Below, piece after piece: positions 37,971-53,054 of a DNA stretch of 64,000 bases; within the stretch, counting starts at the first letter, position 1; each line of letters starts with the position of its first letter. Location: assembly GCF_002995495.1 (NCBI RefSeq), contig NZ_PVZV01000007.1, positions 1 to 64,000 on the forward strand, given 5' to 3'. The position numbers were made by a program, and so were the translations under genes. The notes beneath the pieces are model-generated. The model worked only from the letters and a program-made list of their open reading frames with translations. It did not search any database and was not told the origin of the DNA. This DNA is from Actinocorallia populi. Its GTDB lineage: Bacteria > Actinomycetota > Actinomycetes > Streptosporangiales > Streptosporangiaceae.

Positions 37971-38711
37971 TCAGCCCGAGGGAGACGTGGTCTCGGGGAG
38001 GAAGCCGCGGGCGCGGAGGAAGGCGGTGCAGGCGGTGGTCCACTCCCCCGCCGGGTGGTCTTCGGCCAGTCCCAGGCCGTGCCGGCCGGTTTCGTAGATG
38101 TGGAGGGTGAAGGGGATCCGGTGGCGGGCGAGGGCTTGGGCGACGAGGGTCGAGTGGATGGGGCTGACGGAGGTGTCTTCGGCGGTGTGCCACAGGAAGG
38201 TGGGCGGGGTGGCGGCGGTGACGCGGTTCTCGAGGGAGAGGTCGCGCAGGGCGGCGGGGTCGGGGTCGGGGCCGAGCAGGTTGGTGACGGAGCCCTGGTG
38301 CGGGAGCTCCAGCAGGCTCGCCACGGGGTAGCACAGGACGGCCGTGTCGGGGCGGTCGTCCCGGTCGGTGGCGAGCAGGCCTGCGAGGTGGCCTCCGGCG
38401 GAGAAGCCGAGCACCCCGATCCGGCCGGGGTCGATGCCCAGGGGGCCGGCGTTCTCGCGCAGGTGGCGCAGGGCGTTGCGGGCGTCCTGGAGGGGGGCCG
38501 GGTGGCGGTGGGGCGCGACCCGGTAGCGCAGGACGAAGGCCGAGACGCCCAGCCGGTTCAGCCACTGCGCGACGGGAGCGCCTTCGTGTTCGGCGAGGTG
38601 GGCGTAGCCGCCTCCGGGCAGGACGAGCATCGCCGCGGTCCGGCCCGCCCGGTTGGAGGCGGGGAAGGGGTGCAGGACCGCTCCGTCGCCGAGCTGGACG
38701 GCGTGGTTCAT
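37971..38711 (-). CDS. Alpha/beta hydrolase, acetyl-esterase type
   Basis: This 246-residue hydrolase has VLPGGGYAHLAEHEG (oxyanion loop), GFSAGGHLAG (nucleophile Ser), AEDTSVSP (acid) and TGRHGLGLAEDHP (catalytic His). This is the BD-FAE/acetyl-xylan-esterase-like layout that removes acyl groups from sugars. It starts at ATG 38711 and is the last gene of the minus-strand uronate unit (44-68 bases after the dehydrogenase gene), so de-esterification of the uronate-containing substrate is a sensible role. Confidence 0.88.
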   Translation of the reverse strand: MNHAVQLGDGAVLHPFPASNRAGRTAAMLVLPGGGYAHLAEHEGAPVAQWLNRLGVSAFVLRYRVAPHRHPAPLQDARNALRHLRENAGPLGIDPGRIGVLGFSAGGHLAGLLATDRDDRPDTAVLCYPVASLLELPHQGSVTNLLGPDPDPAALRDLSLENRVTAATPPTFLWHTAEDTSVSPIHSTLVAQALARHRIPFTLHIYETGRHGLGLAEDHPAGEWTTACTAFLRARGFLPETTSPSG

Positions 38712-38779
38712 GGATCGCCTTTCGGTTCGGGGGCCGGTGGTGCCGCCGGGCCCGTGACCGTGGTCCGGCGGCACCGTGC

Positions 38780-40291
38780 TCAGCCCTGGGAGGGCTGCTC
38801 CAGGATGCCGTTGCGGCGGCGGGGCAGCTTCCACGGGTTGCCGTCGCGCAGGGCGGGTGGCAGGAGGGCGGGCGGGCAGTTCTGGTAGGTGACGGGCCGC
38901 AGGAACCGGAAGATGGCGGCGGCGCCGACCGAGGTGGTGGTGGGGGCGGTGGTGGCCGGGTAGGGGCCGCCGTGCTGCTGGGCCCAGCCGACGGTGACGC
39001 CGGTGGGGTAGGCGTCGAAGACGAGGCGGCCGGCGCGGTCGCGGGCCAGGGCGACCAGGCGGTTGGCGAGTTCCTCCTCCTCCGGGGCGCTGTGCAGGGT
39101 CATCGTCAGGGAGCCGGAGGCGGCGGACAGCGCCGCGGCGAGGTCGTCCTCGCCGGAGTACTCCAGGATCACGGTCAGGGGCCCGAAGCACTCCTCCAGC
39201 AGGAGCGCGGAGGAGCCCAGGAGCGAGACGGGTCCGGCGAGCAGGCGGGCGGTGACCTGGCGGCCCTCTCCCGCCAGGCCGGTCGCGACGGTGCGCAGGC
39301 CGGGGACGGCCTCGCGTTCGGCGGCGCCCGCGGTGAACCCCTCGCGGATGGAGTCGCCGAGCAGCGTCTGGGGGCCGAGGGCGGTGAAGTGCCCGGCCAT
39401 CGCCTCGGCCAGACCGGACCCCTCGGGCGCCAGCACGAGGCCGGGCTTGACGCAGAACTGGCCCGCGCCGAGCGTCGCGGACGCCGACAGGCCCGCCGCG
39501 ATCTCCTCCAGCCGTGCCTTCGCCGCGCCGGGGGTGATCACGAGGGGGTTGAGGCTGCCGAGCTCGCCGTAGAAGGGGATCGGCTCCGGCCGCGCCATGG
39601 CGAGGTCGTGCAGGTAGCGGCCTCCGGAGACCGAGCCGGTGAACCCGATGGCCTTCACCCGCGGGTCCTGCACCAGGACGGTGCCCGCCTCGCGTCCGTG
39701 CACGAGCTGGACGACGTCCTCGGGGAATCCGGCGGCGACGGCGCCCGCCCGCAGGGCCTGGAGCGTCAGGACCGAGGTGTCGGGATGGAGGGAGTGCGCT
39801 TTGACGACGACCGGACAGCCCGCGGCCAGCGCGCTGGCGGTGTCGCCGCCGCCGACGCTGAAGGCGAACGGGAAGTTGCTGGCGGAGAAGACCCCCACGA
39901 CGCCGAGCGGGATGTTCATCCGGCGCAGGTCGGGCTTGGGCGGCGCGGAGGCGGGGTCCGCGGAGTCGAGGCGGACGTCCAGGAAGGACCCTTCGCGCAG
40001 CACCTCGGCGAACAGGCGGAGCTGGCCGCTGGTGCGTGCGACCTCGCCGGTCAGCCTCGCTTCGCCGAGGGCGGTCTCGGCGTCGGAGACGGCGACCAGT
40101 TCGCCGGTCCGGGCGTCGAGCGCGTCGGCCATGGCCTCCAGCAGAGAGGCGCGGCCCTGCGGTCCGGCCTCGTCGAGGACGGGCAGCAGGGCGTGGGCGC
40201 GGCGGCAGGCCGCGCCGACCTCTTCGGGCGTCGTGCTCGCGTACTCGGCGCGGCGCTCGCCGGAGCGGGCGTCGATGCTCCAGACGGTCAC
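38780..40291 (-). CDS. Alpha-ketoglutarate semialdehyde dehydrogenase (aldehyde dehydrogenase family)
   Basis: This 503-residue aldehyde dehydrogenase has catalytic Cys280 in GAGQFC, Glu243 in YGELGS, Asn139 in SASNFPF and Lys164 in VVVKAH. The GQFCVKPG and NPLVITPGA context marks the 2,5-dioxovalerate (alpha-ketoglutarate semialdehyde) dehydrogenase group, which oxidises the semialdehyde to 2-oxoglutarate. It starts at GTG 40291 with GGAGG upstream. With the KDG dehydratase (43252) it completes the oxidative uronate pathway. Confidence 0.9.
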   Translation of the reverse strand: MTVWSIDARSGERRAEYASTTPEEVGAACRRAHALLPVLDEAGPQGRASLLEAMADALDARTGELVAVSDAETALGEARLTGEVARTSGQLRLFAEVLREGSFLDVRLDSADPASAPPKPDLRRMNIPLGVVGVFSASNFPFAFSVGGGDTASALAAGCPVVVKAHSLHPDTSVLTLQALRAGAVAAGFPEDVVQLVHGREAGTVLVQDPRVKAIGFTGSVSGGRYLHDLAMARPEPIPFYGELGSLNPLVITPGAAKARLEEIAAGLSASATLGAGQFCVKPGLVLAPEGSGLAEAMAGHFTALGPQTLLGDSIREGFTAGAAEREAVPGLRTVATGLAGEGRQVTARLLAGPVSLLGSSALLLEECFGPLTVILEYSGEDDLAAALSAASGSLTMTLHSAPEEEELANRLVALARDRAGRLVFDAYPTGVTVGWAQQHGGPYPATTAPTTTSVGAAAIFRFLRPVTYQNCPPALLPPALRDGNPWKLPRRRNGILEQPSQG

Positions 40292-40322
40292 GTGTTTCCT
40301 CCAGGTCGGTGGGCGGTGAGGG

Positions 40323-42215
40323 TCATGAGGTCGTGAGCTCCGTGATGAGGGCGAAGGCCCGTCCGGTGGTGAGCCGGCCGTCGGCGACCACCACGGTGAC
40401 CGCGCGTTCCAGCCGGTCGGGGACGATCAGCGGTTCCGCCCAGGCCAGGGCCGGTCCGACGCCCGGGTATTCGGCGACGCGCACGAACCACGGGTCGAGC
40501 CCGAGGGTCTGCGCGAACAGCAGGCTCCAGTCGTCGGAGACCAGCGCCAGCCACGACGTGGAGCTGCCGTGCACGGCCTGCTCGCCGGAGGCCTCGGCGG
40601 TGAAGACGTCCAGCCCGGCGGAGTCCTTGGGCGCCCGCCAGAAGAACCCGCCGTAACCCGCGCCGGCACGGCCTTTGCACGCCGAGCTCTGGATCGACAG
40701 CGGTTCGCCGGTGCGGTTGTGCAGGGTGAAGGCGAAGTCCAGCGCCCACGCGCCGGTCAGGGAGCGGGCCGTGAGGGTGCGTTCTTCGGCGGCCAGGACG
40801 GTGCCGTCCGGGCCGGTCCACTCCAGGCGCTCGGTGTGGCCGCCGTCCACGGGGCGCAGCGACCGGCGCCGCTGCCGTCCGTGGTTGGGCAGGATCCTCG
40901 GCCCGACGCCGGACACGTAGGTGGAGCCGCCCCAGAAGTTGACGCTGTTGACGTCGGCGATCGCCACGCCTGCCCCGAAGTGGTGCACGTGGTCGTCCGG
41001 TTGGCATTCGGTGACGACGGTCCCGCCGAGCGTCCGGACCGGGTGCAGATGGGGCCGGGGGGCGTCCGTCGCCTGGAGGTCGCCCCGCTGGACGTAGGTG
41101 GCGACCTCCTGGGAGCCGGCGTGCAGGTGGGTCTCCGGCCAGGCGTCCGGCTGCGGCCCGAGGCTGCCGGGGAAGCCGAGTTCCGAGAGCGTCTTCAGCT
41201 CGGCTGCGGCCCGCACGGCCAGGCCGTCGATGCCGGGCAGCACCAGCCGGGACGGCTCGGTGCGCGCCCCCTCGACGGGCAGCGGATCGGGGGCGCGCCG
41301 GATCTCGTCGAGCAGCCGGGTGAAACCGCCGGTCCGCGCCAGCGGCACCAGCAGCTCCTCCCCCTCCCGGATGTGCGCCAGGAGGTTGCCGAGCAGGTCC
41401 GTCCGGTCGAAGCCGGTGCGGACGCCGTCCACCTCGATCTCGTCGAGGGTGTAGAACAGCCGGGCCGAACGCGTCTCGCCGTGCAGGTGCAGGTAGGGCT
41501 CGGTGCGGCGATCGGAGCACAGGCTCACGGTGATCGCGATGACGGTCCCGTCGGCGAGCCGGATCCGGGCGCTGGAGGTGTCGTCGGACTCGATGCCGTT
41601 GGCCCGGTACAACTCCAGCTCGATCCCCTCGATCGAGGAGACCTCGTCGGCTCCGGCGACCGCCAGCGCGGTGGCGGTCGCGTGCGCGAACGGGTTGGTC
41701 AGCGCGCCGTCCATGACGTCCACGCCGTCCAGCCGCCGGCGGCCCGCCCAGGGCGCGCGGGAGTAGTAGGCGAACGGGCGCGTCCAGGCTCCGGCGACGC
41801 CGATGCCGCGGATCGGTTCGCCCAGCAGTTCCGCGGCTGCGGGGATGGCGGCCGAGCCGAGCGACTGGAAGCCGACCTGACAGGCCAGTCCGGTCTCGGC
41901 GACCGCGGCGGAGATCCGCTCGAACTCCTCGACCGACGGTGCGGGCGGCTTCTCCAGCAGCACGTGCGCCCCGGCGTGCAGGGCCGCGACGGCCAGCGGC
42001 GCGTGCGTGTGGATCGGCGTCGCGATCACCGCGACCTCCGCGCCGGTTTCGGCGATCAGTGCCGGCAGGTCCGCCGACGACGGCACGTCCAGGCCGGGTG
42101 ACGGCCGGGTGTCGCAGACGCCGACGAGTTCGGCCGCGGCGAGCCGCCGGATGTTCTCCAGGTGGTGGCGTCCGTACCCGTGGATCCCGGCGACCACCAC
42201 GCGCACGGGTTTCAT
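40323..42215 (-). CDS. Gfo/Idh/MocA oxidoreductase fused to a PmoA-like (DUF6807) domain
   Basis: This 630-residue fusion has an N-terminal Gfo/Idh domain (VVVAGIHGYGRHHLENI; LLEKPPAPSVEEF) to about residue 350 and a C-terminal PmoA/DUF6807-type domain (LHPVRTLGGTVVTECQPDDHVHHFG; VNFWGGSTYV; WRAPKDSAGLDVFT). The PmoA-like part is a beta-sandwich otherwise encoded separately near oxidoreductases; its role is unknown, and the name does not imply methane oxidation. The overlap with the enolase-family gene is ATGA. A role in processing a modified uronate or glycoside is inferred from the operon. Confidence 0.85.
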   Translation of the reverse strand: MKPVRVVVAGIHGYGRHHLENIRRLAAAELVGVCDTRPSPGLDVPSSADLPALIAETGAEVAVIATPIHTHAPLAVAALHAGAHVLLEKPPAPSVEEFERISAAVAETGLACQVGFQSLGSAAIPAAAELLGEPIRGIGVAGAWTRPFAYYSRAPWAGRRRLDGVDVMDGALTNPFAHATATALAVAGADEVSSIEGIELELYRANGIESDDTSSARIRLADGTVIAITVSLCSDRRTEPYLHLHGETRSARLFYTLDEIEVDGVRTGFDRTDLLGNLLAHIREGEELLVPLARTGGFTRLLDEIRRAPDPLPVEGARTEPSRLVLPGIDGLAVRAAAELKTLSELGFPGSLGPQPDAWPETHLHAGSQEVATYVQRGDLQATDAPRPHLHPVRTLGGTVVTECQPDDHVHHFGAGVAIADVNSVNFWGGSTYVSGVGPRILPNHGRQRRRSLRPVDGGHTERLEWTGPDGTVLAAEERTLTARSLTGAWALDFAFTLHNRTGEPLSIQSSACKGRAGAGYGGFFWRAPKDSAGLDVFTAEASGEQAVHGSSTSWLALVSDDWSLLFAQTLGLDPWFVRVAEYPGVGPALAWAEPLIVPDRLERAVTVVVADGRLTTGRAFALITELTTS

Positions 42216-43255
42216 GCCGTCCACCTCGTCGGCGCCCCGGTGGCGCGCAGCTCCGCCCCGGTGATCTCCACCGGGGACGGTGCGGCGAGCAGTCCCAGCT
42301 CGGTCAACGTGGCGTCCTCCACTCTTTCCACCATCGCGGGATGGTGCAGCGCCAGGGCGAGCTGGCCCGACAGCTCGGTGAGCAGGTGCGGGTAGACGGG
42401 GACGTCGAACACGCGGGCCAGTTCGGCGATCCGCAGGAACGGCGTGATCCCGCCGACGCGCACGAGGTTCGGCTGGACGACGTCGCAGGCCCCGGCGGCG
42501 AGCAGGTCGCGGAAGCCGTGCGCGGTGGCGACGTTCTCGCCGACCGCGATCGGGACGCCGGTGCCGCGCCGCAGCTCCACGTGGGCGGCGAGGTCGTCGG
42601 CGGGCAGCGGCTCCTCGATCCAGAACAGGTCGTAGCCTTCCAGGGCCCGCAGCGCGGTGCGGGCGCGGTGCAGGTCCCACCGCTGGTTGGCGTCGGCCAT
42701 CAGCAGCCGGTCGGGGCCGATCACCTCGCGGACCGCCGCGACCCGTGCGACGTCCTCGGCGAGGGAGGGCCGCCCGACCTTGATCTTGACGGCGGTGTGC
42801 CCGGCGGCCACCCACCGCTCGGCCTGCGCGCGCAGCTCCTCGAGCGGGTAGTGGAGATTGACGCCGCTGCCGTAGACGGGGACGCTCGCGCGCCGCGCGC
42901 CGAGGACGTCCGCCAGGGGGCGCTCGCCGCAGCGCAGGTCCCACAGCGCGAGGTCGACCCCGGCCATGGCGATCGGCACGATCCCGGCACGCCCGGCCTC
43001 GCCGAGGTGCGCCGACAGCCGGTCCCAGACGAGTTCGGGGTGCGGGGGCAGGCCGGTCACCGCGTCGCGGATGTCGTGTTCGAGCAGGGCTTTGACCGCC
43101 TGGGCGCCGATCTGCGGCGTCCAGGCCAGGCCGGTGCCGCGCCGCCCGTCCTCCAGGGTGAGCGTGACGAGCAGCGCGTGGTTGCAGGGCACGTCCGCGC
43201 CCCACGGCCGGGCCAGGGGCACCGACCGCAGGACGACGGCAAGATCCTTGATCAC
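42212..43255 (-). CDS. Mandelate racemase/muconate lactonising enzyme family protein (enolase superfamily)
   Basis: This 347-residue enolase-superfamily enzyme has KIKVG (Lys157, Lys159), metal ligands DAN (Asp188), EEP (Glu214) and GEN (Glu240), and a C-terminal barrel. In the oxidative uronate pathway this position is filled by a galactarolactone cycloisomerase or galactarate/glucarate dehydratase; which one cannot be told from sequence. Its start overlaps the stop of the KDG dehydratase gene, and its stop overlaps the fused oxidoreductase start. Confidence 0.9.
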   Translation of the reverse strand: MIKDLAVVLRSVPLARPWGADVPCNHALLVTLTLEDGRRGTGLAWTPQIGAQAVKALLEHDIRDAVTGLPPHPELVWDRLSAHLGEAGRAGIVPIAMAGVDLALWDLRCGERPLADVLGARRASVPVYGSGVNLHYPLEELRAQAERWVAAGHTAVKIKVGRPSLAEDVARVAAVREVIGPDRLLMADANQRWDLHRARTALRALEGYDLFWIEEPLPADDLAAHVELRRGTGVPIAVGENVATAHGFRDLLAAGACDVVQPNLVRVGGITPFLRIAELARVFDVPVYPHLLTELSGQLALALHHPAMVERVEDATLTELGLLAAPSPVEITGAELRATGAPTRWTA

Positions 43256-44118
43256 GGGGCCACCAGGGCGAGTCCCGACTTGATGAGCGCCTCGAGTTCG
43301 GCCTCGTGCTCGGGTGAGACGGGCACCAGCGGCGGCCGGGGCCCGCCGGCGTCCAGGCCGCGCAGCCGCACCCCGGCCTTGACCAGCGACACCGCGTAGC
43401 CGGGGACCTTGGAGCGCAGTTCCACCAGCGGCGCGTAGAACTCGGGGATCAATCGCTCGTCGCCGTTCAGGTAGGCCTTGGCGATCTCGGGCGCGAAGCA
43501 GAACACGGCGCTGGAGTACAGGTCGACGCCGATCGCCCGGTAGGCGGGCTGGGTCAGCTCGGCGTTCGGCAGCCCGTTGAAGAACAGGAAGTCCTCGCGG
43601 ACCTTGCGGACGGCCAGCACGATGCGCTGCATGCGGTCGATGTCGCCGAGGCCGTCCTTCAGCCCGATGACGCCGGGGATCGCGGCCAGCTCGACCGCCG
43701 TCGCGGGGTCGAGGGCGATCGGACCGCGCTGGTAGATGATGACGGGCAGCTCGGCGGCGATGGCCCGCACGTAGTCGGCGAATCCGGGCCCTTGGACGAG
43801 GTAGGGCGGCATGAGCAGCAGTCCGTCGGCGCCTGCCTCGCGGGCGGCGCGCGCCTGGGCGAGCGCGGCTCCGAACGGCCCGCCCGCTCCGGCGAACACC
43901 GGGACGGCGCCGTTCGCCGTCTCGACCGCGATCCGGACGGCCTGGGCGTGCTCGGCCTCCGACAGGGCGGTGAACTCACCGGTCCCGCAGGCGACGAACA
44001 CGCCGCCGGGCCCGTGTTCGAGGCCTCGGCGGATGTGTTCGGCCAGCAGGTCCGGCACGAGTTCCCCGTCGCGGCCGAAGGGGGTGACGGGGAAGAAGAG
44101 AACGCCTTCGAGGTTCAT
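43252..44118 (-). CDS. kdgD: 5-dehydro-4-deoxyglucarate dehydratase (KdgD-like)
   Basis: This 288-residue DHDPS-family protein has FVACGTGEFTALSEAEH, VIIYQRGP (Tyr129) and the Schiff-base Lys154 in GLKDGLGD. GTGEFTALS and the NGLPNAELT segment fit 5-keto-4-deoxy-glucarate dehydratase/decarboxylase, which gives alpha-ketoglutarate semialdehyde, CO2 and water. The ATG at 44118 is at a 32-base gap from the dehydrogenase gene upstream. The adjacent aldehyde dehydrogenase uses its product. Confidence 0.9.
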   Translation of the reverse strand: MNLEGVLFFPVTPFGRDGELVPDLLAEHIRRGLEHGPGGVFVACGTGEFTALSEAEHAQAVRIAVETANGAVPVFAGAGGPFGAALAQARAAREAGADGLLLMPPYLVQGPGFADYVRAIAAELPVIIYQRGPIALDPATAVELAAIPGVIGLKDGLGDIDRMQRIVLAVRKVREDFLFFNGLPNAELTQPAYRAIGVDLYSSAVFCFAPEIAKAYLNGDERLIPEFYAPLVELRSKVPGYAVSLVKAGVRLRGLDAGGPRPPLVPVSPEHEAELEALIKSGLALVAP

Positions 44119-44150
44119 GTTCGGTGCTTCCTTCGAAGAGGGGGCGGCGG

Positions 44151-45038
44151 TCAGGAGAGTTCGGTGCGCCAGCTGCGCTTGGCGGTCCAGCCGAGCAGCC
44201 GTTCGGCCTTGGCGCTGGAGAACGCGGGGGCGGTGCCGGTCAGGCGGTCGGCGAAGCCCTCGGTCCCGGGCATCGCGGCGGGCAGCAGCTCGGCGAGCGG
44301 TTCGCGCGCCAGGGCGTCGGCGGCCCCGGCGAAGAAGACCTCGCCGTTGGTCTCCAGCAGCGGGAGCCTGGCCAGCAGCGTGTCGACGAAGTCGCCGGCG
44401 TCGCGGGCGTCGAGGTAGTTGAACAGGGAGACGCCGCCGATCTCGGGACGGTCGAGCCGCTCGGCGATGGTGTGCCCGGACTGGGTGGGCGCGCCCTCCC
44501 ACTCTTCGGGCGCGACGACGAAGCAGGGCCGGAACGCGGCCATCCGGGTGGTCGGGCAGGCCCTGGCGAAGGAGCGCATGGTCTGCTCGGCCACGAGCTT
44601 GGACAGGTTGTAGGCGTTCCAGGGTTCGGCCGGGTGGTCCTCGTCGAGCGGCAGGTAGGCGGGCGTCCAGCCGCCGGGGGCGCCGTACCCGATCACCGTG
44701 GGGCTGCTGGCGATGATGAGCTTTCCCACGCCCAGGGCGGTGGAGGCGGCGCAGACGTTGAAGGCGAGCTGGGTGTTGACGCGGAAGGTGGTGGCCTCGG
44801 AGCGGCTGAACGGCACCGCGATGGCGGCGAGGTGCACCACCGCGTCGGGCCGGAACCGAGCGATCACCGAGTGCGCCTCGCCGAGGTCGGTGAGGTCGGC
44901 GGGCAGGACCGCGGCCGCCTCGCGCGGGCTGCCCGGCGCGGTGTCCACGCCGATCACCTCGTGGCCGGCCTGCGCGAGCGAGACGACCACGCTGCGGCCG
45001 AGGCGGCCCGCGCTTCCGGTGACGAGCACTCTGCTCAC
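44151..45038 (-). CDS. NAD-dependent uronate dehydrogenase-like epimerase/dehydratase family protein
   Basis: This 295-residue extended SDR has GSAGRLG at 8-14, Asp32 (NAD-specific), Ser111-Ser112, and Tyr143-x3-Lys147 in YNLSK. Length and position, next to an enolase-family enzyme and KDG dehydratase, fit uronate dehydrogenase, which oxidises galacturonate or glucuronate to the aldaric lactone. Other NAD-dependent epimerases are possible. It starts at GTG 45038 with AAGGAG upstream and is the first gene of the minus-strand unit, divergent from the LacI gene. Confidence 0.82.
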   Translation of the reverse strand: MSRVLVTGSAGRLGRSVVVSLAQAGHEVIGVDTAPGSPREAAAVLPADLTDLGEAHSVIARFRPDAVVHLAAIAVPFSRSEATTFRVNTQLAFNVCAASTALGVGKLIIASSPTVIGYGAPGGWTPAYLPLDEDHPAEPWNAYNLSKLVAEQTMRSFARACPTTRMAAFRPCFVVAPEEWEGAPTQSGHTIAERLDRPEIGGVSLFNYLDARDAGDFVDTLLARLPLLETNGEVFFAGAADALAREPLAELLPAAMPGTEGFADRLTGTAPAFSSAKAERLLGWTAKRSWRTELS

Positions 45039-45060: not shown

Positions 45061-45074
45061 TGCAATCAGTTGCA
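45061..45074. promoter_or_regulatory. LacI-family operator 1 of the uronate regulon
   Basis: TGCAATCAGTTGCA, with TGCAA/TTGCA arms, lies 23 bases upstream of the uronate-dehydrogenase-like start on the minus strand. It is one of four related sites (also 45158-45171, 47303-47316 and 47425-47438) near the LacI gene at 45186. Confidence 0.7.
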
Positions 45075-45157: not shown

Positions 45158-45171
45158 TGCAAACGGTTGCG
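45158..45171. promoter_or_regulatory. LacI-family operator 2, before the regulator gene
   Basis: TGCAAACGGTTGCG lies 15 bases before the lacI start at 45186. A possible promoter, TTGATG (45148-45153) and TAGGGT (45173-45178) with a 19-base spacer, encloses the site, and the predicted start would make a nearly leaderless mRNA. Autorepression by the LacI product is likely. Confidence 0.65.
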
Positions 45172-45185: not shown

Positions 45186-46148
45186 ATGTCAGTCACCATT
45201 CGGGACGTCGCCCAGGCCTCAGGCGTCCACGTGTCGACGGTCTCCCGCACCTTCTCGGCACCCCATCTGGTCAACGCCGAGACACGGACCCGGGTGCTGG
45301 CGACGGCCGACGAGCTCGGCTACCGGCCCAACAGGGCGGCCCGCTCGCTCACCACGGGCCGCACCGGCAACATCGGGCTGATCGTGGCGGACCTGGCCAA
45401 CCCGTTCTTCCCGCCGCTGATCAAGGCGGCGCAGGCCGCGGCGCGCCGCCAGGACTACCACCTGTTCGTGGCCGACACCGACGAGGACCCCACCGAGGAG
45501 GAGGACCTCGTGCTGGCCTTCTCCAAACAGGTGGACGGCATCGTGCTGTGCAGCCCCCGGCTGTCGAACAAGGCGCTGGAGAAGCTCGCCAAGAACGTCC
45601 CGTTCGTCCTGGTCAACCGGCGGATCCGCGGGCTGGCCACGGTCGTGATGGACGTGGCCCAGGGCGCCCGCGCCGCCATGGAGCACCTCAAGGAGCTCGG
45701 CCACCGGCGCGTCGCCCTGGTGACGGGCCCGGCAGGCTCGTGGACCAGCGGCGAGATCCGCAGGGCCGTCTCGGAGGTCCCCGGCATGGAGACCGTCGTC
45801 ATCGGCCCCAACTCCCCCACCGCCAAAGGCGGCATCGCCGCGGCCGGCCAGGTCGTCGAGGCGGAGGTGACCGGCGTGCTCGCCTACAACGACCTCCTCG
45901 CCATCGGCCTCATCGAAGGGCTGGGCGAACTCGGCGTCGGCGTCCCGCAGGACGTCAGCGTGATCGGCTTCGACGACAGCATCACCGGCCGCCTGCACCG
46001 GCCCAAACTCACCACGGTCGCGATGCCCACGGGCGACGCCGGCCGGATGGCGGTCGACCTGCTCATCCAGTCGATGAGCGCGGCGACCGTTCTGGAGACC
46101 CACCTGGTGGTCCGCGAGTCCACCGCACCCCCGAAAGGAGTCTCATGA
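45186..46148 (+). CDS. LacI family transcriptional regulator
   Basis: This 320-residue LacI/GalR protein has an HTH at 3-25 (VTIRDVAQASGVHVSTVSR), hinge (RPNRAARSLTTGRTGNIG) and a sugar-binding effector domain (LIVADLANPFFPPLIKAA; VLAYNDLLAIGLIEGL; VIGFDDSITGRL). It lies between the uronate catabolic genes and the importer genes and is divergent from the former. It is coupled by ATGA to the aldose epimerase gene. Four 14-base sites of related sequence around it make it the likely regulator of both units. Confidence 0.93.
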   Translation: MSVTIRDVAQASGVHVSTVSRTFSAPHLVNAETRTRVLATADELGYRPNRAARSLTTGRTGNIGLIVADLANPFFPPLIKAAQAAARRQDYHLFVADTDEDPTEEEDLVLAFSKQVDGIVLCSPRLSNKALEKLAKNVPFVLVNRRIRGLATVVMDVAQGARAAMEHLKELGHRRVALVTGPAGSWTSGEIRRAVSEVPGMETVVIGPNSPTAKGGIAAAGQVVEAEVTGVLAYNDLLAIGLIEGLGELGVGVPQDVSVIGFDDSITGRLHRPKLTTVAMPTGDAGRMAVDLLIQSMSAATVLETHLVVRESTAPPKGVS

Positions 46149-47128
46149 GCGTCGATCCCGCCCAGCGCGAGGACGTTCTCTTCGGTGTCGCCCCCGGCGG
46201 CGAGCCGGTCGAACGGCACGTGCTCGACAACGGGCGGCTGCGCGTCGCCGTCCTCAGCTACGGAGCGACCATCCAGCGGCTGGAGGTCGCCGACGGCACC
46301 GACGTGGTGCTCGGCCTCGACACCCTGGACGACTACCTGCACCGCAGCCGCTACTTCGGAGCGGTCGTCGGCCGCTACGGCAACCGCATAGCCCGCGGCA
46401 GGTTCACCCTCGACGGGAGGGAGCACCGGCTGGCGGTCAACAACGGGGAGCACAGCCTGCACGGCGGAGTCCGCGGCTTCGACAAACGGGTGTGGCGGGT
46501 GGAGGAGGCGGGACCGCAGGAGATCACGCTGAGCCTGCTCAGCCCGGACGGCGAGGAGGGCTACCCCGGCACCCTGCGGGCCGCCGTCCGCTACGTCCTG
46601 GACGGGGACGCGCTGCGGCTGGAGTACCGGGCGGCCACCGACGCGCCCACCGTCGTCAACCTGACCAACCACTCCTACTTCAACCTCGCCGGCTCGGGCG
46701 ACGTGCGCGGGCACGTCGTGACGATCGAAGCCGACCGCTACCTGCCCGTCGACGAGGGCAAGATCCCCACCGGGGAACTGGCGCCCGTGGCGGGCACCCC
46801 GTTCGACTTCACCCGCCCCGCCCGGGTCGACGCGCGTCTCGGCGGCCGCTACGACCACTGCTTCGTGCTGCGGGGCGGGATGACGGTGAGCGATCCCGGC
46901 AGCGGCCGGACGATGACCGTCACCACCACCGAACCGGGCGTGCAGTTCTACACCGGGCACATGCTCGACGGCGCCGCCACGCCCTACGGACCGTTCGCGG
47001 GACTGTGCCTGGAGACCCAGCGCTTCCCCGACTCCCCCAACCGGCCCGGATTCCCTTCGACGGTGCTGCGCCCCGGCGAGGAGTACACCTCGACCACGAC
47101 CTACCTGTTCTCGACGGGATCCGCCTGA
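46145..47128 (+). CDS. galM: Aldose 1-epimerase
   Basis: This 327-residue GalM-type mutarotase has YGNRIARGRFTLDG, NGEHSLHGGVRGFD (with the conserved catalytic His), VNLTNHSYFNLAGSG (second His) and a Glu near GLCLETQRFPDSPN as the base. It interconverts the anomers of an imported aldose or uronate. Its start overlaps the LacI stop. The transporter promoter begins after it at about 47434. Confidence 0.93.
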   Translation: MSVDPAQREDVLFGVAPGGEPVERHVLDNGRLRVAVLSYGATIQRLEVADGTDVVLGLDTLDDYLHRSRYFGAVVGRYGNRIARGRFTLDGREHRLAVNNGEHSLHGGVRGFDKRVWRVEEAGPQEITLSLLSPDGEEGYPGTLRAAVRYVLDGDALRLEYRAATDAPTVVNLTNHSYFNLAGSGDVRGHVVTIEADRYLPVDEGKIPTGELAPVAGTPFDFTRPARVDARLGGRYDHCFVLRGGMTVSDPGSGRTMTVTTTEPGVQFYTGHMLDGAATPYGPFAGLCLETQRFPDSPNRPGFPSTVLRPGEEYTSTTTYLFSTGSA

Positions 47129-47302: not shown

Positions 47303-47316
47303 TGCAATCGGTTGTA
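47303..47316. promoter_or_regulatory. LacI-family operator 3
   Basis: TGCAATCGGTTGTA shares its first nine positions except one with operator 1 and lies 200 bases before the importer genes. It is the distal partner of the site at 47425-47438; two sites about 120 bases apart could allow looping. Confidence 0.55.
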
Positions 47317-47424
47317 CTAACGCGTGATGCGGAGAGTTTTTTCTGCTGCGTCCGCAACCGGGCTCATGCCGCTTGACCTGGCTGTTCACCAAGCGGTAGG
47401 TCGGGAGCCCGTGAGCCAGCTCAC

Positions 47425-47461
47425 TGCAAAGGGTTGACGTCATCTTCGGCGAAGCTATAGG
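47425..47461 (+). promoter_or_regulatory. Promoter and LacI-family operator 4 of the sugar importer
   Basis: TTGACG (47434-47439) and TATAGG (47456-47461) with a 16-base spacer look like a vegetative promoter. The site TGCAAAGGGTTGAC (47425-47438) overlaps the -35 box. The site resembles operators 1 to 3. Binding of the LacI protein would block transcription of the ABC importer genes. Confidence 0.7.
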
Positions 47462-47502
47462 AAGAGCGCTATCCCATCCACCGACTCCCCGAAGGGCCAG
47501 TG

Positions 47503-48486
47503 ATGACGCTGAGTCCCCTCACGGCGAGGAAGGCCGAAGCACCGGTCACGCTCCCCGAAAAGGCGGGCGCCTCCCGCCCCGGACGCCGCAGGAGCTCACA
47601 CAGCCGATCGCAGGCGCGCGCGGCCTACCTGTTCCTGGCCCCCTGGTTCATCGGCCTGCTCGCCATCACCCTCGGGCCGATGATCGCCTCGCTCTACCTG
47701 TCGTTCACCGACTACAGCATGCTGAGCGAGGCGCACTGGGTCGGCCTCGACAACTACGAGAAGATGTTCACCGAGGACGACCGGTTCCTCACCTCGCTGA
47801 AGGTGACGACCGTCTACGTCGTGGTGTCCGTGCCGCTGCAGCTGGCCTTCGCGCTGGCGCTGGCGCTCGTGCTCGACAGGGGCCTGCGCGGCCTGCCGTT
47901 CTACCGCTCGGTCTTCTACCTGCCGTCGCTGCTCGGCGGCAGCGTGGCGATCTCGATCCTGTGGCGGAAGATCTTCGGCACGGACGGCATCGTCAACTCG
48001 GTCCTCGGCCTGTTCGGCTACGAGGGCCAGGGCTGGGTGACCAGCCCCGACACCGCGCTGTGGACGCTGATCATCCTGCACGTCTGGACGTTCGGCGCCC
48101 CGATGGTCATCTTCCTCGCCGGCCTGCGGCAGATCCCGCAGAGCCTCTACGAGGCGGCCTCGGTCGACGGCGCGGGACCGCTGCGCAAGTTCCGCTCGAT
48201 CACCCTGCCGCTGCTCACCCCGATCATCTTCTTCAACCTGGTGCTGGAGGTGATCAAGTCGTTCCAGTCCTTCACCCAGTCGTTCATCGTCAGCGGCGGC
48301 AACGGCGGACCGGTCGACTCGACCCTCTTCTACACGCTCTACCTCTACATCAAGGGCTTCAAGAACTACGAGATGGGCTACGCGGCCGGCATGGCCTGGG
48401 TGCTGCTGCTCATCATCGGAGCCCTGACCGCCGTCAACTTCCTCATGTCTCGATTCTGGGTCTTCTATGGCGACGACGACAAGTAA
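47503..48486 (+). CDS. Sugar ABC transporter permease (MalF/UgpA-like)
   Basis: This 327-residue permease has six helices and a cytoplasmic N-terminus of about 40 residues. The EAA loop EAASVDGAGPLRKFRSITLPLL marks the carbohydrate-uptake CUT1 type. I start it at ATG 47503; a GTG at 47500 is possible. It is the first gene of the importer operon, overlaps the second permease by 20 bases, and probably brings in the uronate or its oligomer. Confidence 0.93.
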   Translation: MTLSPLTARKAEAPVTLPEKAGASRPGRRRSSHSRSQARAAYLFLAPWFIGLLAITLGPMIASLYLSFTDYSMLSEAHWVGLDNYEKMFTEDDRFLTSLKVTTVYVVVSVPLQLAFALALALVLDRGLRGLPFYRSVFYLPSLLGGSVAISILWRKIFGTDGIVNSVLGLFGYEGQGWVTSPDTALWTLIILHVWTFGAPMVIFLAGLRQIPQSLYEAASVDGAGPLRKFRSITLPLLTPIIFFNLVLEVIKSFQSFTQSFIVSGGNGGPVDSTLFYTLYLYIKGFKNYEMGYAAGMAWVLLLIIGALTAVNFLMSRFWVFYGDDDK

Positions 48487-49330
48487 GCGGGTGCCGGTCC
48501 TCTTCCGGCCCGCTCCGCGCCTGTTCAGGCATCTGCTGCTCATCGCCTTCGGGCTCTTCATGCTCTACCCGCTGCTGTGGATGGTCTCCAGCTCCATCAA
48601 GCCCGAAGAGCTGATCTTCCGGGAGCCGGGGCTGGTGCCGACGGAGGTGACGACCGAGAACTACAGCCAGGGCTGGGACGCGCTCAAGCACTCCTTCGGC
48701 TACTACCTGTGGAACTCCGCCGTCATCACCGGCCTGGCCGTGGTCGGCAACCTGCTGGCCTGCTCGCTGGCGGCCTACGCCTTCGCGCGGCTGGAGTTCC
48801 CGCTGAAGAAGGTGTGGTTCGCGGTCATGCTCGGCTCGATCATGCTGCCGCACCACGTCACGGTCGTGCCGCAGTACATCATGTTCGCCAAGTTCGACTG
48901 GATCAACACGATCTGGCCGATCGTCGCGCCGAAGTTCCTCGCCACCGACGCGTTCTTCATCTTCCTGATGGTGCAGTTCATCCGCACCCTCCCCCGGGAA
49001 CTCGACGAGGCCGCGGCGATCGACGGCGCCGGCCACTGGCGCACGTTCTCCCGGGTGATCATGCCGCTGTGCGTCCCGGCGCTGGCGACCACCGCGATCT
49101 TCACGTTCATCTGGACGTGGAACGACTTCTTCACCCAGAACCTCTACCTGACCGACTCCGACAACCTCACCGTCCCCGTCGCGCTCAGGCAGTTCATGGA
49201 CTCCAGCGGCGAATCCTCCTGGGGTCCGCTGTTCGCGATGTCGCTCATCTCGCTCGGCCCGATCTTCGGATTCTTCCTCGCGGGCCAGAAGTACCTCGTC
49301 CAGGGCATGGCGACCACCGGCCTGAAGTAG
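48467..49330 (+). CDS. Sugar ABC transporter permease (MalG/UgpE-like)
   Basis: This 287-residue CUT1 permease has six predicted helices and an EAA loop, DEAAAIDGAGHWRTFSRVIMPL. It pairs with the upstream MalF-like protein to form the channel. No ATPase gene lies in the cluster, so a shared MsiK-type ATPase elsewhere in the genome is likely, as in other actinomycete sugar importers. Confidence 0.93.
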   Translation: MATTTSKRVPVLFRPAPRLFRHLLLIAFGLFMLYPLLWMVSSSIKPEELIFREPGLVPTEVTTENYSQGWDALKHSFGYYLWNSAVITGLAVVGNLLACSLAAYAFARLEFPLKKVWFAVMLGSIMLPHHVTVVPQYIMFAKFDWINTIWPIVAPKFLATDAFFIFLMVQFIRTLPRELDEAAAIDGAGHWRTFSRVIMPLCVPALATTAIFTFIWTWNDFFTQNLYLTDSDNLTVPVALRQFMDSSGESSWGPLFAMSLISLGPIFGFFLAGQKYLVQGMATTGLK

Positions 49331-49377
49331 CACCCTCCGCTTTCCCCCACCCCCCCACCCCCCCAGGAGGTATCCCT

Positions 49378-50640
49378 GTGAAGCGCATTCTGGCGGCCAC
49401 CGCCGCCACCCTGATGGCGGCCTCGCTCACCGCGTGCGGCGGCGACGACGGCGGCGGCTCCGACGGCAGGACCACGGTCGTGTTCTCCTACTGGGGCAGC
49501 GACGCGCGGCAGCAGCTGACCGAGACGGCCATCTCCAAGTTCGAGGAGAAGAACCCGACGATCGACGTCGAGGGCGACTTCTCCGACTGGGACAGCTACT
49601 ACGAGAAGCTCGCCACCAAGACCGCGGCCGGCGACGCCCCGGACGTGATGTCCATCGAGATCCGCGGCCTGGCCGAGTACTCCGGCCGCGGCATCCTCGC
49701 CGACCTCGCGGGCAAGGTCGACACCGCGAAGCTCGACCAGGACGTGCTCAAGGCGGGCCAGGTCGACGGCAGGCAGTTCGCCATCCCCACCGGCGTCAAC
49801 GCCTTCCCGATGATCGTCAACAAGGCCACGGTGGAGAAGGCCGGGAAGAAGGTCCCGGACGACAAGGCCTGGACCTGGGACGACTACATCGCGCTCGCCC
49901 AGAGCATCACCACCGAGACCGACGGCGAGGTCTGGGGCACCGAGTGGAACCGCAACCCCGCCTTCCTGGAGATCTTCGCCCGCCAGCGCGGCGAGGAGTT
50001 CTACAAGGACGGCAAGATCGGGCTCTCGGAGCAGACCATCAAGGACTGGTGGGCCCTCCTGCAGAAGATCTCCGCCACCAAGGCCGGCCCTGACGCCGCC
50101 CAGATGAACGAGACCGGCACCAAGGTCGACCAGGCCCTGCTCGCCACCAACAAGAGCGCGTTCGGCAGCTGGTGGAGCAACCAGCTCACCGCGCTGAGCA
50201 AGGGCTCCGGCCAGGAACTCGACCTGCTGCGCATGCCCAAGGCCCCTGGCGCGGCCACCGGCGGCATGTTCCTCCAGCCCGCCATGTACTACACGCTCTC
50301 GGCCAAGTCCGAGAACGCCGAGGCCGCCCAGAAGTTCGTCGACTTCCTGGTCAACGACCCCGACGCCGCCGCGATCCTGCTCAGCGACCGGGGCCTGCCG
50401 ACCAACAGCGAGGTCGTCGCCGCGGTCAAGGACAAGCTGTCCCCGGCCGACCAGAAGGTGCTGGCCTTCATCGAGTCCGTCAGGAGCGAGCTGAGCACCG
50501 CAGCGGTCCCGCCGAAGGGCGCCATGGAGATGGAGGACGTCCTCATCCGCGCCACCGACTCGGTCCTGTTCGACAAGGCCTCCCCCGACGACGCCGCCAA
50601 GACCTTCATCAGCGAGGCCAACTCCGCCCTCTCCCAGTAA
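49378..50640 (+). CDS. Sugar ABC transporter substrate-binding lipoprotein
   Basis: This 420-residue lipoprotein has a short signal (MKRILAATAATLMAAS, lipobox LTAC with Cys20) followed by an extracellular-solute-binding family 1 fold (TTVVFSYWGSDARQQLTETAISKFEEK; DAPDVMSIEIRG; WTWDDYIALAQSI). It starts at GTG 49378 with an AGGAGG ribosome site. The binding site cannot be read from sequence, but the cluster suggests a uronic acid or pectin/glycan oligomer. Confidence 0.93.
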   Translation: MKRILAATAATLMAASLTACGGDDGGGSDGRTTVVFSYWGSDARQQLTETAISKFEEKNPTIDVEGDFSDWDSYYEKLATKTAAGDAPDVMSIEIRGLAEYSGRGILADLAGKVDTAKLDQDVLKAGQVDGRQFAIPTGVNAFPMIVNKATVEKAGKKVPDDKAWTWDDYIALAQSITTETDGEVWGTEWNRNPAFLEIFARQRGEEFYKDGKIGLSEQTIKDWWALLQKISATKAGPDAAQMNETGTKVDQALLATNKSAFGSWWSNQLTALSKGSGQELDLLRMPKAPGAATGGMFLQPAMYYTLSAKSENAEAAQKFVDFLVNDPDAAAILLSDRGLPTNSEVVAAVKDKLSPADQKVLAFIESVRSELSTAAVPPKGAMEMEDVLIRATDSVLFDKASPDDAAKTFISEANSALSQ

Positions 50641-50653
50641 GCCGCATCCGCTG

Positions 50654-50690
50654 ACGTGCCGTACGGCCCGCCACGGGCCGTACGGCACGT
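50654..50690 (+). terminator. Perfect 17-base hairpin after the substrate-binding protein gene
   Basis: ACGTGCCGTACGGCCCG (50654-50670) pairs perfectly with CGGGCCGTACGGCACGT (50674-50690) around a three-base loop (cca). There is no U-run. It may be an attenuator that keeps the binding protein mRNA more abundant than the following Gfo/Idh and hydrolase genes, or an mRNA-stability hairpin. Confidence 0.65.
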
Positions 50691-50721
50691 CTCTTCCGCA
50701 TCCTTCTTGAAGGGGTTCCCG

Positions 50722-52002
50722 ATGCGATACGCCTTCGTCGGCCTCGGCCACCGGGCGCAGATGTACATCGACGCACTGCTCGGGCAGTGGAGCGACACCG
50801 GCGAGATCGTCGCCCTCTGCGACGCCAACCGGACCCGGCTCGACTACTACCTCGACCTGATCGGACGAGACGTCCCCTGCTTCGCGCCGGAGAAGTTCGA
50901 CGAGATGCTCGAGCTCGCGGACGCCATCGTGGTCGCCACCGTCGACGCCGCCCACGCCCGCTACGTCATCGCCGCGCTGGACGCGGGCAAGGACGTCATC
51001 TGCGAGAAGCCGCTGTGCACCACCGCCGAGGACTGCGCGGCCATCGTCGAGGCCGCCGAGCGCAGCACGGGCCGGCTCGTCGTCACCTTCAACTACCGCT
51101 ACTCCCCGCGCAACAGCACGGTCCGGCGGCTGATCGCCGAGGGCGCGATCGGCGACGTCACGTCCGTGCACTTCGAGTGGGTGCTCGACACCATCCACGG
51201 CGCCGACTACTTCCGGCGCTGGCACCGCGACAAGGCCAGCTCCGGCGGCCTGCTGGTGCACAAGTCCACGCACCACTTCGACCTGGCCAACTGGTGGCTG
51301 GACGACACCGCCCGCTCCGTCTACGCCCAGGCGGCGCTGCGCTTCTACGGGGCCGACAACGCCCGCGCCCGCGGCCTGGACGAACGCCCGGAGCGCGCCC
51401 AGGGCGCGCCGGGACTCGGCACCGACCCGTACCTGCTCGACCTGTCGGCCGACCCGAGGCTCAAGCGCCTGTACCTGGACGCCGAGCACGAGGACGGCTA
51501 CATCCGCGACCAGGACGTGTTCGGCGAGGGCGTGACGATCGACGACAACATGGCCGTCCTCGTCCGCTACGCGCGAGGAGCGCTGCTGACCTACTCCCTC
51601 AACGCCCACGGCCCGTTCGAGGGCTACCGGGTGGCGTTCAACGGCACCGGCGGACGGCTGGAACTCGAGGTCGTCGAACGCGCCTGGACACCGCCGCACG
51701 CCGCGATCGACCCGACCGCGGCGAGCAAGGAGCACGCCGTCGGCGCCTCCGAGCGGCTCGTGCTGCACCGGCACTGGAGCGAACCGGAGGAGATCGCCAT
51801 CGACGCGGGCGCGGGCGCGCACGGCGGCGGCGACGCGCTCCTGCTGGACGATGTGTTCCGCGGCGCGGGCGACGACCCGCTGGCCCGGCAGGCGGGGCAT
51901 CTTGCGGGTGTGGCCAGCGTGATGATCGGCGTCGCGGCCGGTCTGTCGGCCACGAGCGGCGAGCCGGTGCTGCTGGACGACGGCATCCGGCCGGCGGGCT
52001 GA
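50722..52002 (+). CDS. Gfo/Idh/MocA family oxidoreductase
   Basis: This 426-residue sugar oxidoreductase has a Rossmann start (YAFVGLGHRAQMYID), EKPLCTTAEDC (conserved EKP) and a long C-terminal substrate domain with HKSTHHFDLANWW, where His residues are catalytic. A long insertion (about 215-250) is typical of the larger sub-family. It follows the sugar importer and is joined to the hydrolase gene by a 1-base overlap (TGATG). Confidence 0.9.
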   Translation: MRYAFVGLGHRAQMYIDALLGQWSDTGEIVALCDANRTRLDYYLDLIGRDVPCFAPEKFDEMLELADAIVVATVDAAHARYVIAALDAGKDVICEKPLCTTAEDCAAIVEAAERSTGRLVVTFNYRYSPRNSTVRRLIAEGAIGDVTSVHFEWVLDTIHGADYFRRWHRDKASSGGLLVHKSTHHFDLANWWLDDTARSVYAQAALRFYGADNARARGLDERPERAQGAPGLGTDPYLLDLSADPRLKRLYLDAEHEDGYIRDQDVFGEGVTIDDNMAVLVRYARGALLTYSLNAHGPFEGYRVAFNGTGGRLELEVVERAWTPPHAAIDPTAASKEHAVGASERLVLHRHWSEPEEIAIDAGAGAHGGGDALLLDDVFRGAGDDPLARQAGHLAGVASVMIGVAAGLSATSGEPVLLDDGIRPAG

Positions 52003-53054
52003 TGCTGGAGGGCTTCCAGGGCCTGGCGGAGATCGCGGCACGCGGGCGCGTCCTGTTCCCTGCGCCGGGCCCCGGCCTGCGTGCCGCGCTCCGCGACGCC
52101 CTCGGCGTCCTCGACCTGTCCGCGGACGGCGTGCGGGTAGAGCGCCGCTGGGTTTCCGCGGACGGGGAGCTCGAGGGCGAGGAGCTTTCGTGGACGGTCG
52201 GGTTCGGGCCGCGCACCCGCGCTTACCTGCTGCGGCCCCGCGGCGCCGGGCCGCTCCCCGGAATCGTGGCGATGCACTGCCACGCGGGCATGAAGTGGGC
52301 GGGCAAGGAGAAGATCGCCGACGGTCCCGAGGGCCCGTCCACCGAGGTCGTCCGGCTGCGCGGCCAACTGTACGGCGGCCGCGCCTACGCCTGCGACCTG
52401 GCCCGGCGCGGCTTCGCCGTCCTGGTCCACGACGTGTTCGCCTGGGGCAGCCGCCGCCTTCCCCTGGCCGCGAACACGCCCGACGACTACGACCGGGCCG
52501 CCCGAGAACACGAACACGTCGTGGCGAAGGCATGCACAGTACTCGGGACGTCCTTCGCGGGCGTCCTGGCCTCGGAAGACCTGGCGGCGGCCGCCTACCT
52601 GCGCTCGCGTCCCGACGTCACCTCGGTCTCGGCGATCGGCCTGTCGGGCGGCGGAGCGCGGGCCGCGCTGCTGGGAGCCCTCGATCCCGACGTCGCCTCG
52701 GTCGTCGTGGCCGCGATGGTCTCCTCGTTCCGCGACCTGCGCGAGGAACACGTGGCCTCCCACTCGTGGATGTTGTTCCCGCCGGGCTTGACCGGCCTCG
52801 CCGACTGGCCGCACGTGATCTCCAGCCGCGCTCCCGCACCGCTGCTGGTGCTCTACGCCACGGCCGACCCGCTCTTCCCCATCCAGGGAATGCACCGGGC
52901 CCACGAGCAGATCACCGAGACCTACCGAAATGCTCCCCAGGGGTACACCGGCCTGTTCTTCGACGCACCGCACTGCTTCAACGCCCCCATGCAGGAAGCG
53001 GCCTTCACCTGGCTCACCGAGAACCAAACACCAGCACACAAGTCTTCCGCGTGA
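52002..53054 (+). CDS. Acetyl xylan esterase-like alpha/beta hydrolase
   Basis: This 350-residue protein has GIVAMHCHAGMKWAGKEK, GGRAYACDLARRGFAVLVHDVFAWGSRR, nucleophile Ser in IGLSGGGARAAL, acid in YATADPLFPIQG and His in DAPHCFN. The shape is of dienelactone/acetyl-xylan-esterase hydrolases. Its start overlaps the oxidoreductase stop by one base. It probably removes an ester group from the imported sugar. Confidence 0.85.
   Translation: MLEGFQGLAEIAARGRVLFPAPGPGLRAALRDALGVLDLSADGVRVERRWVSADGELEGEELSWTVGFGPRTRAYLLRPRGAGPLPGIVAMHCHAGMKWAGKEKIADGPEGPSTEVVRLRGQLYGGRAYACDLARRGFAVLVHDVFAWGSRRLPLAANTPDDYDRAAREHEHVVAKACTVLGTSFAGVLASEDLAAAAYLRSRPDVTSVSAIGLSGGGARAALLGALDPDVASVVVAAMVSSFRDLREEHVASHSWMLFPPGLTGLADWPHVISSRAPAPLLVLYATADPLFPIQGMHRAHEQITETYRNAPQGYTGLFFDAPHCFNAPMQEAAFTWLTENQTPAHKSSA

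Follow-up and report, generated by a model that had tools for sequence, protein, structure and literature searches.

In a 64,000-nucleotide stretch of the Actinocorallia populi genome (positions 1 to 64,000 of contig NZ_PVZV01000007.1, hereafter called the window), a cluster of sugar-acid genes at 37971-53054 probably forms a single co-regulated set for the catabolism of sugar acids derived from pectin. Its oddest component, a fused two-domain enzyme in which a Gfo/Idh oxidoreductase runs into a DUF6807 (PF14100) domain, most likely catalyzes early reactions. Our favored reading, put forward tentatively and at somewhat less than even confidence, is a LacI-controlled regulon predicted to serve the uptake and C1 oxidation of pectin-derived galacto-configured sugar acids via this Gfo–DUF6807 fusion. 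A preliminary description of the same DNA had claimed an apparently complete oxidative hexuronate pathway that began with a uronate dehydrogenase (Udh) and carried extra oxidoreductases and esterases. Every gene class that it listed was confirmed within 37971-53054, limits that correspond to the two outermost stop codons, by translation and Pfam scans (threshold of 1e-5); with Pfam and NCBIfam, the SDR, the enolase, the KdgD-type protein, the aldehyde dehydrogenase, GalM, the CUT1 importer, the two Gfo/Idh proteins, and the two hydrolases were all recognized within these limits. It had overlooked the DUF6807 half of the fusion and the LacI gene (45186-46148). The elements of the cluster are the following.

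37971..38711, minus strand: BD-FAE / alpha-beta hydrolase, likely a cytoplasmic esterase (location judged by eye; Pfam BD-FAE, 7.3e-19)
38780..40291, minus strand: aldehyde dehydrogenase, probable 2-oxoglutarate semialdehyde dehydrogenase (Pfam Aldedh; best PDB match 1eyy, 380.5 bits)
40323..41159, minus strand: DUF6807 half of the fusion, with a beta fold predicted to resemble galactose mutarotase (PF14100, 1.8e-61)
41160..42215, minus strand: Gfo/Idh/MocA half of the 630-amino-acid fusion, in the same reading frame as DUF6807 (GFO_IDH_MocA, 5.6e-18)
42212..43255, minus strand: enolase-superfamily (MR/MLE) sugar-acid dehydratase or cycloisomerase (MR_MLE_C, 6.4e-62)
43252..44118, minus strand: KdgD-type 5-dehydro-4-deoxyglucarate dehydratase of the DHDPS family (NF002958, 356.8 bits, cut-off 278)
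44151..45038, minus strand: extended short-chain dehydrogenase/reductase (SDR), outside the Udh clade (Pfam, PDB searches, tree)
45061..45074, no strand: LacI-type operator, exact TGCAANCNGTTGCA (motif search)
45158..45171, no strand: LacI-type operator, one mismatch (motif search)
45186..46148, plus strand: LacI-family regulator (Pfam LacI, Peripla_BP_3)
46145..47128, plus strand: aldose 1-epimerase, GalM (Aldose_epim, 1.3e-92; NF008277, 288.3 bits, cut-off 240)
47303..47316, no strand: LacI-type operator upstream of the importer genes, one mismatch (motif search)
47500..48486, plus strand: CUT1-type permease (BPD_transp_1)
48467..49330, plus strand: CUT1-type permease (BPD_transp_1)
49378..50640, plus strand: importer solute-binding protein (SBP_bac_8, SBP_bac_1)
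50722..52002, plus strand: second Gfo/Idh/MocA oxidoreductase, Gfo2 (Pfam; NCBIfam matches below cut-off)
52002..53054, plus strand: alpha/beta hydrolase, Hyd2, with a weak DLH match (PF01738, 3.1e-6)

In the mechanism that we propose, the substrates would be chiefly galacturonate and small, possibly esterified galacturonides. The CUT1 importer would bring the sugar in, the two hydrolases would remove esters, the Gfo half would oxidize ring C1 of the galacto-configured sugar, and the DUF6807 half would open the resulting lactone. The enolase-superfamily enzyme would dehydrate the aldarate, the KdgD-type enzyme would yield 2-oxoglutarate semialdehyde, and the aldehyde dehydrogenase would convert it to 2-oxoglutarate. 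The SDR and Gfo2 may act on an accompanying form (the other anomer, an epimer, or a modified uronate), and in several relatives the whole would operate alongside a neighboring Udh-type set.

The first Gfo/Idh protein (from 42215) runs in frame into DUF6807 (to 40323), forming a single open reading frame (ORF) of 630 amino acids whose PF14100 match reaches 208.6 bits against a gathering cut-off of 27. A scan with the DUF6807 half recovered 66 loci, and in 44 of them the SDR and the enolase accompany it with conserved gene order; these two genes and DUF6807, but not Gfo, were the criteria for what we call the core loci, and all gene counts among them are lower bounds, with flanks of at most 9 kb and matches below the identity thresholds left out. 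The DUF6807 halves that share 76-82% identity with that of the window come from Actinomadura and one Thermoactinospora. Describing the first Gfo/Idh as an extra enzyme was an understatement, since its Gfo half is found in all 44 core loci and is fused to DUF6807 in 37. The architectures of 67 DUF6807 ORFs (window's included, matches below 40% of the query length excluded) comprised 44 fusions to Gfo/Idh, the window's among them, 7 to a LacI regulator, and 16 standalone proteins, which rules out the fusion being an artefact.

A LacI-type palindrome, TGCAANCNGTTGCA, was discovered upstream of the SDR genes. When one mismatch is allowed, the window contains three sites, two of them between the divergent SDR and LacI genes and the third in front of the importer genes; when two are allowed, it has eight matches versus 2.3 expected. 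Of the 44 core loci, 43 have the operator (≤1 mismatch) ahead of the SDR; independently of motif discovery, it also precedes the permease in 32 of 37. As many as 98 of 114 operator sites fell inside SDR/permease upstream regions, which represent 27.4 of 783 kb, and ten distinct scrambled palindromes each gave at most one match among those regions. The pattern TGCAANCNGTTGNA, a version of the operator relaxed at a single position so as to cover both promoters, has two exact matches in the 8.25-Mb genome, both in the cluster. We consider that one LacI-type operator probably joins both cluster halves in one regulon, and that it is predicted to be recognized by the LacI of the cluster. Ten loci have a pectin methylesterase–pectate lyase gene (domains read from locus L054), and in nine of them (L049 included; the exception is L075) the operator stands in front of it, for which reason we take pectin as the source. 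The earlier suggestion of a modified or esterified substrate is favored by this operator-linked gene and by the GDSL domains of relatives, that is, by context and nothing beyond it.

A PDB sequence search with the DUF6807 half returned no relatives. Its AlphaFold2 model is confident (pLDDT 94.2, pTM 0.92), and Foldseek searches with it gave weak matches (best E value 3.8e-4, TMq ≤0.46 among the 50 matches listed), mostly to glycosidases, phosphorylases, OpgD, and YidC, plus two mutarotase-like entries, 4rnl, annotated as a mutarotase, and 1jov, which we take to be another. We interpret these matches as pointing to a supersandwich of the galactose mutarotase kind. Among 57 DUF6807 members, 16 polar or aromatic positions are conserved in 95% or more, including Asp56, His57, His60, Glu125, Arg127, and Arg164 (domain numbering), a conservation pattern as expected for an active site. 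Both the fold and the two mutarotase entries would also suit a DUF6807 half that breaks no bond and acts as a mutarotase or epimerase, supplying Gfo with the anomer or epimer it needs. We regard this as improbable, given that the cluster already has GalM and that the structural matches are weak and fall mostly on glycosidase or phosphorylase domains.

What points to C1 oxidation and lactone opening is the context of the close relatives of the Gfo–DUF6807 pair, found in Streptomyces-type loci with an L-arabinonate dehydratase (arabinose-type loci). In one of them, L158, the IlvD enzyme scores 912.6 bits, above the L-arabinonate dehydratase cut-off of 882, and the copies in L094, L161, L163, and L165 are 80-92% identical to it. 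These loci carry GH43-like genes (63-67% identical to the GH43 of L094), and pectinase and GDSL genes were scored in L158. Within 13 kb, no other dehydrogenase or lactonase was recognized, leaving Gfo and DUF6807 as the only candidates; nor did a lactonase appear in the neighbor census, for which 120 of 167 proteins were scanned and 25 of the 121 families are listed. In the nonphosphorylative arabinose route, the steps before L-arabonate dehydratase are a sugar 1-dehydrogenase and a lactonase (PMC5703739). As the sole candidates recognized, Gfo and DUF6807 are proposed to be that 1-dehydrogenase and that lactonase. D-Galacturonate, L-arabinose, and D-galactose have the same C2-C4 ring configuration, which could allow a single dehydrogenase–lactonase pair to act on each of them. 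A tree of DUF6807 (57 tips) includes a clade of 24 tips with a support of 0.936 that holds the window type, the arabinose type, an SDR/Gfo2 type, and the LacI fusions.

Other DUF6807 contexts also involve sugar genes. In 40 hand-picked, nonrandom loci (L155, L171, L174, and L175 being window-type clusters), a Gfo/Idh gene lay within two ORFs of DUF6807 in 31, a count based on models built from window-type genes that divergent Gfo genes may escape. A more distant DUF6807 (L166) is accompanied by a KDG/KDGal-type kinase and a KDPG-type aldolase, which both score under curated cut-offs, and a lactose-positive soil clone has a PF14100 gene beside an enolase-superfamily gene (PMC5342196). By context, PF14100 is here a sugar-catabolism gene. 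We found no functional study of DUF6807/PF14100 in a literature search whose coverage mostly excluded subscription journals. A second large DUF6807 clade (L136-L148, e.g., L137:7025-7777) pairs with a Cupin_2 protein of ca. 240 amino acids, a family that makes up 15 of the 120 scanned DUF6807 neighbors; GH30 or a peptide-type importer also accompanies members of this clade, and in some cases no Gfo/Idh is recognized. In Cellulomonas, Microbacterium, and Actinophytocola, DUF6807–LacI fusions (L077:7837-9819, L080:4613-6580, L082:7993-9816, L092:7864-9846, and L167) are each followed by a Gfo/Idh gene and are perhaps regulators with a sugar-processing or sensing domain.

The SDR is where the preliminary description did not hold. 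Over the Rossmann half, it is 27% identical to a solved Udh. In a single-sequence PDB search, the uncharacterized SDR 4id9 and GalE-like enzymes came at the top, with Udh entries at ca. 1e-8, and in a profile search a Udh rose to fourth, still below 4id9. In a tree of 26 sequences (158 columns, Rossmann halves only), the Udh structure 6mfh and 11 relatives formed a clade with a support of 0.987, and all 11 cluster-type SDRs fell outside it. Membership of the Udh family was ruled out by this tree and the search ranking. The fold comparison had no Udh among the 50 entries listed and, with an SDR model of pLDDT only 74, adds little weight. A Ser-Asn-His in beta-5 has been described as substrate binding in Udh (PMC4476818); all 11 cluster-type SDRs have Ser-Pro-Thr at this position, and within the Udh clade it is kept only in 6mfh and L190, with six Ser-His-His and four Ser-Asn-Arg. 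The Tyr-x-x-x-Lys motif is present, with Tyr140 and Lys144 invariant (A2).

We also looked for Udh-clade genes in 19 cluster-bearing genomes (hand-picked and nonrandom: the window genome and those that carry 18 of the 44 core loci), and 12 of them have one elsewhere (43-48% identical to the 6mfh piece, E value <1e-29). The window genome has none, its best other match being 35% over 145 residues. In four Nonomuraea genomes (L187, L191, L192, and L193), the Udh-clade gene adjoins the cluster together with a second importer and a further dehydratase, KdgD2; three of these stretches extend far enough to show an aldehyde dehydrogenase as well as a glucarate-dehydratase-like enolase (that of L187, the only one scored, has 254 bits, under the cut-off of 828.7). 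Among 11 Udh-clade genes fetched, 7 lie amid uronate/pectin genes and 4 (L194-L197) do not. With a Udh-clade gene present, in some right beside the cluster, the cluster is a second, parallel route in those relatives. All this makes it quite doubtful, in our view, that the cluster is the usual Udh–Gci–KdgD–KGSADH pathway supplemented by enzymes that deal with modified substrates, as first described: its SDR lies outside the Udh clade, and 12 of 19 genomes have a Udh-clade gene besides, shown in four to stand beside the cluster. In its favor, the lower enzymes fit, and the SDR could oxidize uronates by convergence, above all in the window genome, where for lack of a Udh-clade gene it may be the only uronate dehydrogenase. 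A protein family of ca. 424 amino acids (L094:961-2235, L187:1-804, L192:3-935, and L198:3-638; likeness judged by eye from the N termini, no Pfam match in L094) edges KdgD-containing uronate/arabinose loci.

The lower part of the claimed oxidative hexuronate route (enolase, KdgD type, and semialdehyde-type dehydrogenase) and the importer did stand, with functions beyond the family level inferred from sequence. The KdgD-type enzyme missed the TIGR03249 equivalog cut-off (263.7 versus 373.95 bits), as did KdgD2 of L187 (280.9 bits). Its best PDB match is 4ur7, with aligned Tyr and Lys motifs that we take to be the Schiff-base/catalytic residues of KdgD. Its sequence identity is 59-65% with KdgD2 from the Udh-type set, compared with 31-34% for the arabinose-locus type, and on this account it would be of the hexarate kind. 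The best NCBIfam model for the enolase is L-talarate/galactarate dehydratase (NF047820), at 213.7 bits and under the cut-off of 500. It is 37-38% identical to Actinomadura paralogs of the talarate/galactarate dehydratase type and 23-24% to the glucarate-dehydratase-like one, and an alignment with L176 and L180 shows that it keeps KxK, Asp, Glu, Glu, His, and Glu, presumably the MR-type catalytic residues. Its PDB search was headed by 5xd7 (1.2e-55), with 4ggb, which we take to be galactarolactone cycloisomerase (Gci), at 5.4e-33 behind 22 other entries. As the adjacent Udh-type set holds a glucarate-dehydratase-like enolase, the galacto series seems a likelier substrate than glucuronate. For the aldehyde dehydrogenase, 1eyy, with which its catalytic Cys and Glu motifs align, is followed by 3v4c, Aldehyde dehydrogenase (NADP+). 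No NCBIfam cut-off was met among the best 25 of 37 matches, and the KGSADH models were far from reached (NF042993, 70.6 versus 770 bits; NF052305, 74.1 versus 750 bits).

The window has both KdgD and the aldehyde dehydrogenase, as expected from a complete pathway, but these are found in only 29 and 15 of the 44 core loci, respectively. Of 15 Actinomadura genomes whose locus lacks KdgD (14 core loci and L043), 14 have a KdgD-type paralog (41-45% identical) at another place, the remaining one having no such gene. It adjoins an enolase gene in all five loci inspected, and the one such enolase scored (L176) reached 657.7 bits, above the NF047820 cut-off. In 13 loci (e.g., L032:9801-11867 and L054:9936-12101; Pfam run on one of them), the aldehyde dehydrogenase carries an N-terminal GDSL-type esterase domain, resembling, we believe, rhamnogalacturonan acetylesterases; joining a deacetylase-like domain to the last pathway enzyme is an odd pairing, and the window dehydrogenase lacks it.

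On the minus strand, the cluster runs with overlaps or short gaps from the SDR through the KdgD-type dehydratase, the enolase, the fusion, and the aldehyde dehydrogenase to the BD-FAE esterase, and on the plus strand from the overlapping LacI and GalM genes through the two permeases and the solute-binding protein to Gfo2 and Hyd2. No ATPase gene was seen among the cluster genes; importer ATPases in such actinomycetes are often encoded elsewhere. Permeases were found in 37 and 38 core loci, Gfo2 in 31, relatives of Hyd2 in 10, and the BD-FAE esterase in none; an ortholog of the latter was labeled at L174. The best NCBIfam model for this esterase is the PaeX pectin acetylesterase (144.5 bits, under the cut-off of 550), and Hyd2 had no NCBIfam match. 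Both same-genus genomes in the family sample (G016 and G075) lack DUF6807, so that the cluster looks accessory in the genus.

The window genome had no match to PL1, GH28, GH88/105, PL22, or GH4, the families searched, and the strain may thus live on fragments released by others. In the 19 cluster-bearing genomes, GH28 was found in 2, GH88/105 in 1, PL22 in 0, PL1 in 12, and GH4 in 18, the last of which weakens the idea that no glycosidase is available (the window's genome being the exception). This scarcity of GH28, GH88/105, and PL22 would suit a redox cleavage that replaces them, as in levoglucosan catabolism: the Gfo half would oxidize C3 of an oligouronide after import, DUF6807 would eliminate and/or hydrate the glycosidic bond, and Gfo2 would reduce the 3-keto-galacturonate to galacturonate. 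Like the levoglucosan route LgdA-LgdB1-LgdB2-LgdC (PMC7676230), the cluster combines two Gfo/Idh enzymes with a sugar ABC importer; the levoglucosan dehydrogenase model ranked second for Gfo2, after inositol 2-dehydrogenase (both under cut-off), and the Gfo–DUF6807 fusion itself, in 44 of 67 ORFs, would fit. Unlike that route, however, the cluster has no LgdB-like protein, has DUF6807 instead, and continues into a downstream oxidative sugar-acid route; no sugar-isomerase-type Pfam match was found among its proteins. GH4 is common in the 19 genomes, the hydrolase search was restricted to the families named, the GH43-like gene and arabinonate dehydratase of the arabinose-type loci call for C1 oxidation, and the predicted mutarotase-like fold differs from the TIM-barrel eliminase of PMC10628242. 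On balance, redox cleavage seems rather unlikely, and we think it unlikely that the fusion is a bifunctional enzyme cleaving oligogalacturonides by redox chemistry with DUF6807 as a new glycoside-cleaving class on a mutarotase-like fold. Were this true, these actinomycetes would need no GH28, GH88/105, or PL22 to break down the pectin fragments that they import. A UxaC-family gene lies elsewhere on the contig of the window (G000:C7:184646-185962), and none was found in the other 18 cluster-bearing genomes.

Among known systems, the oxidative hexuronate pathway of Agrobacterium and Pseudomonas consists of Udh, Gci or GarD, KdgD, and KGSADH (PMC6353982). The cluster shares with it a KdgD-type dehydratase, an aldehyde dehydrogenase, an enolase-superfamily enzyme, and its own importer, but its SDR is not a Udh, it adds the Gfo–DUF6807 fusion, Gfo2, two hydrolases, and the LacI operator, and several of its relatives hold a separate Udh-type set. 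The nonphosphorylative L-arabinose pathway (dehydrogenase, lactonase, L-arabonate dehydratase, KDA dehydratase, and KGSADH; PMC5703739) also pairs a DHDPS-family dehydratase with an aldehyde dehydrogenase, and is linked to the cluster by the related Gfo–DUF6807 genes in loci with L-arabinonate dehydratase; in contrast to it, the window uses an enolase-superfamily enzyme rather than IlvD/Edd, its KdgD is of the hexarate type, and no lactonase was recognized. The window copy of DUF6807 departs from the plain domain in being fused to Gfo/Idh.

Several observations weigh against C1 oxidation and lactone opening within a pectin regulon. The nearest solved relatives and best PDB matches of the Gfo half, 3q2k and 3q2i, are, as we understand, C3-dehydrogenases. 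We know of no lactonase with a mutarotase-like fold, aldonolactones can open spontaneously, and the SDR and Gfo2 have no firm step. The grouping of window-type and arabinose-type DUF6807 is unsupported (0.284), which weakens the case for the latter as sister group of the former; the wider clade alone holds, with the order inside it unresolved. Many other DUF6807 loci have cupin, GH30, or peptide-importer neighbors and no recognized dehydratase, and KdgD is missing from 15 and the aldehyde dehydrogenase from 29 of the 44 core loci. As to the operator, the motif was derived from SDR upstream regions, and independent evidence thus comes only from the permease and pectinase sites; a reversed control pattern matches four times genome-wide, versus two for TGCAANCNGTTGNA, whose genome-wide count is thus not raised, leaving only the site locations as telling.

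The cluster represents a variant of the known oxidative pathway with an unassigned enzyme family, DUF6807, at its center, and a non-Udh route lying beside a Udh-type set is a warning that SDRs in clusters like this should not be named Udh on context alone. Taken together, the arabinose-type relatives, the pectin regulon delineated by the operator, and the fusion narrow the candidate substrates to galacturonate, galactose, L-arabinose, and the corresponding lactones, with which the function of DUF6807 could be settled using one protein and a few assays. The domain is common in the bacterial family of the window (79 of 150 genomes, against 13 of 246 across the phylum), yet under the old name and misnomer PmoA it has been labeled a methane gene in at least one study, a metatranscriptome analysis that grouped it with PmoB and PmoC (PMC10291797).

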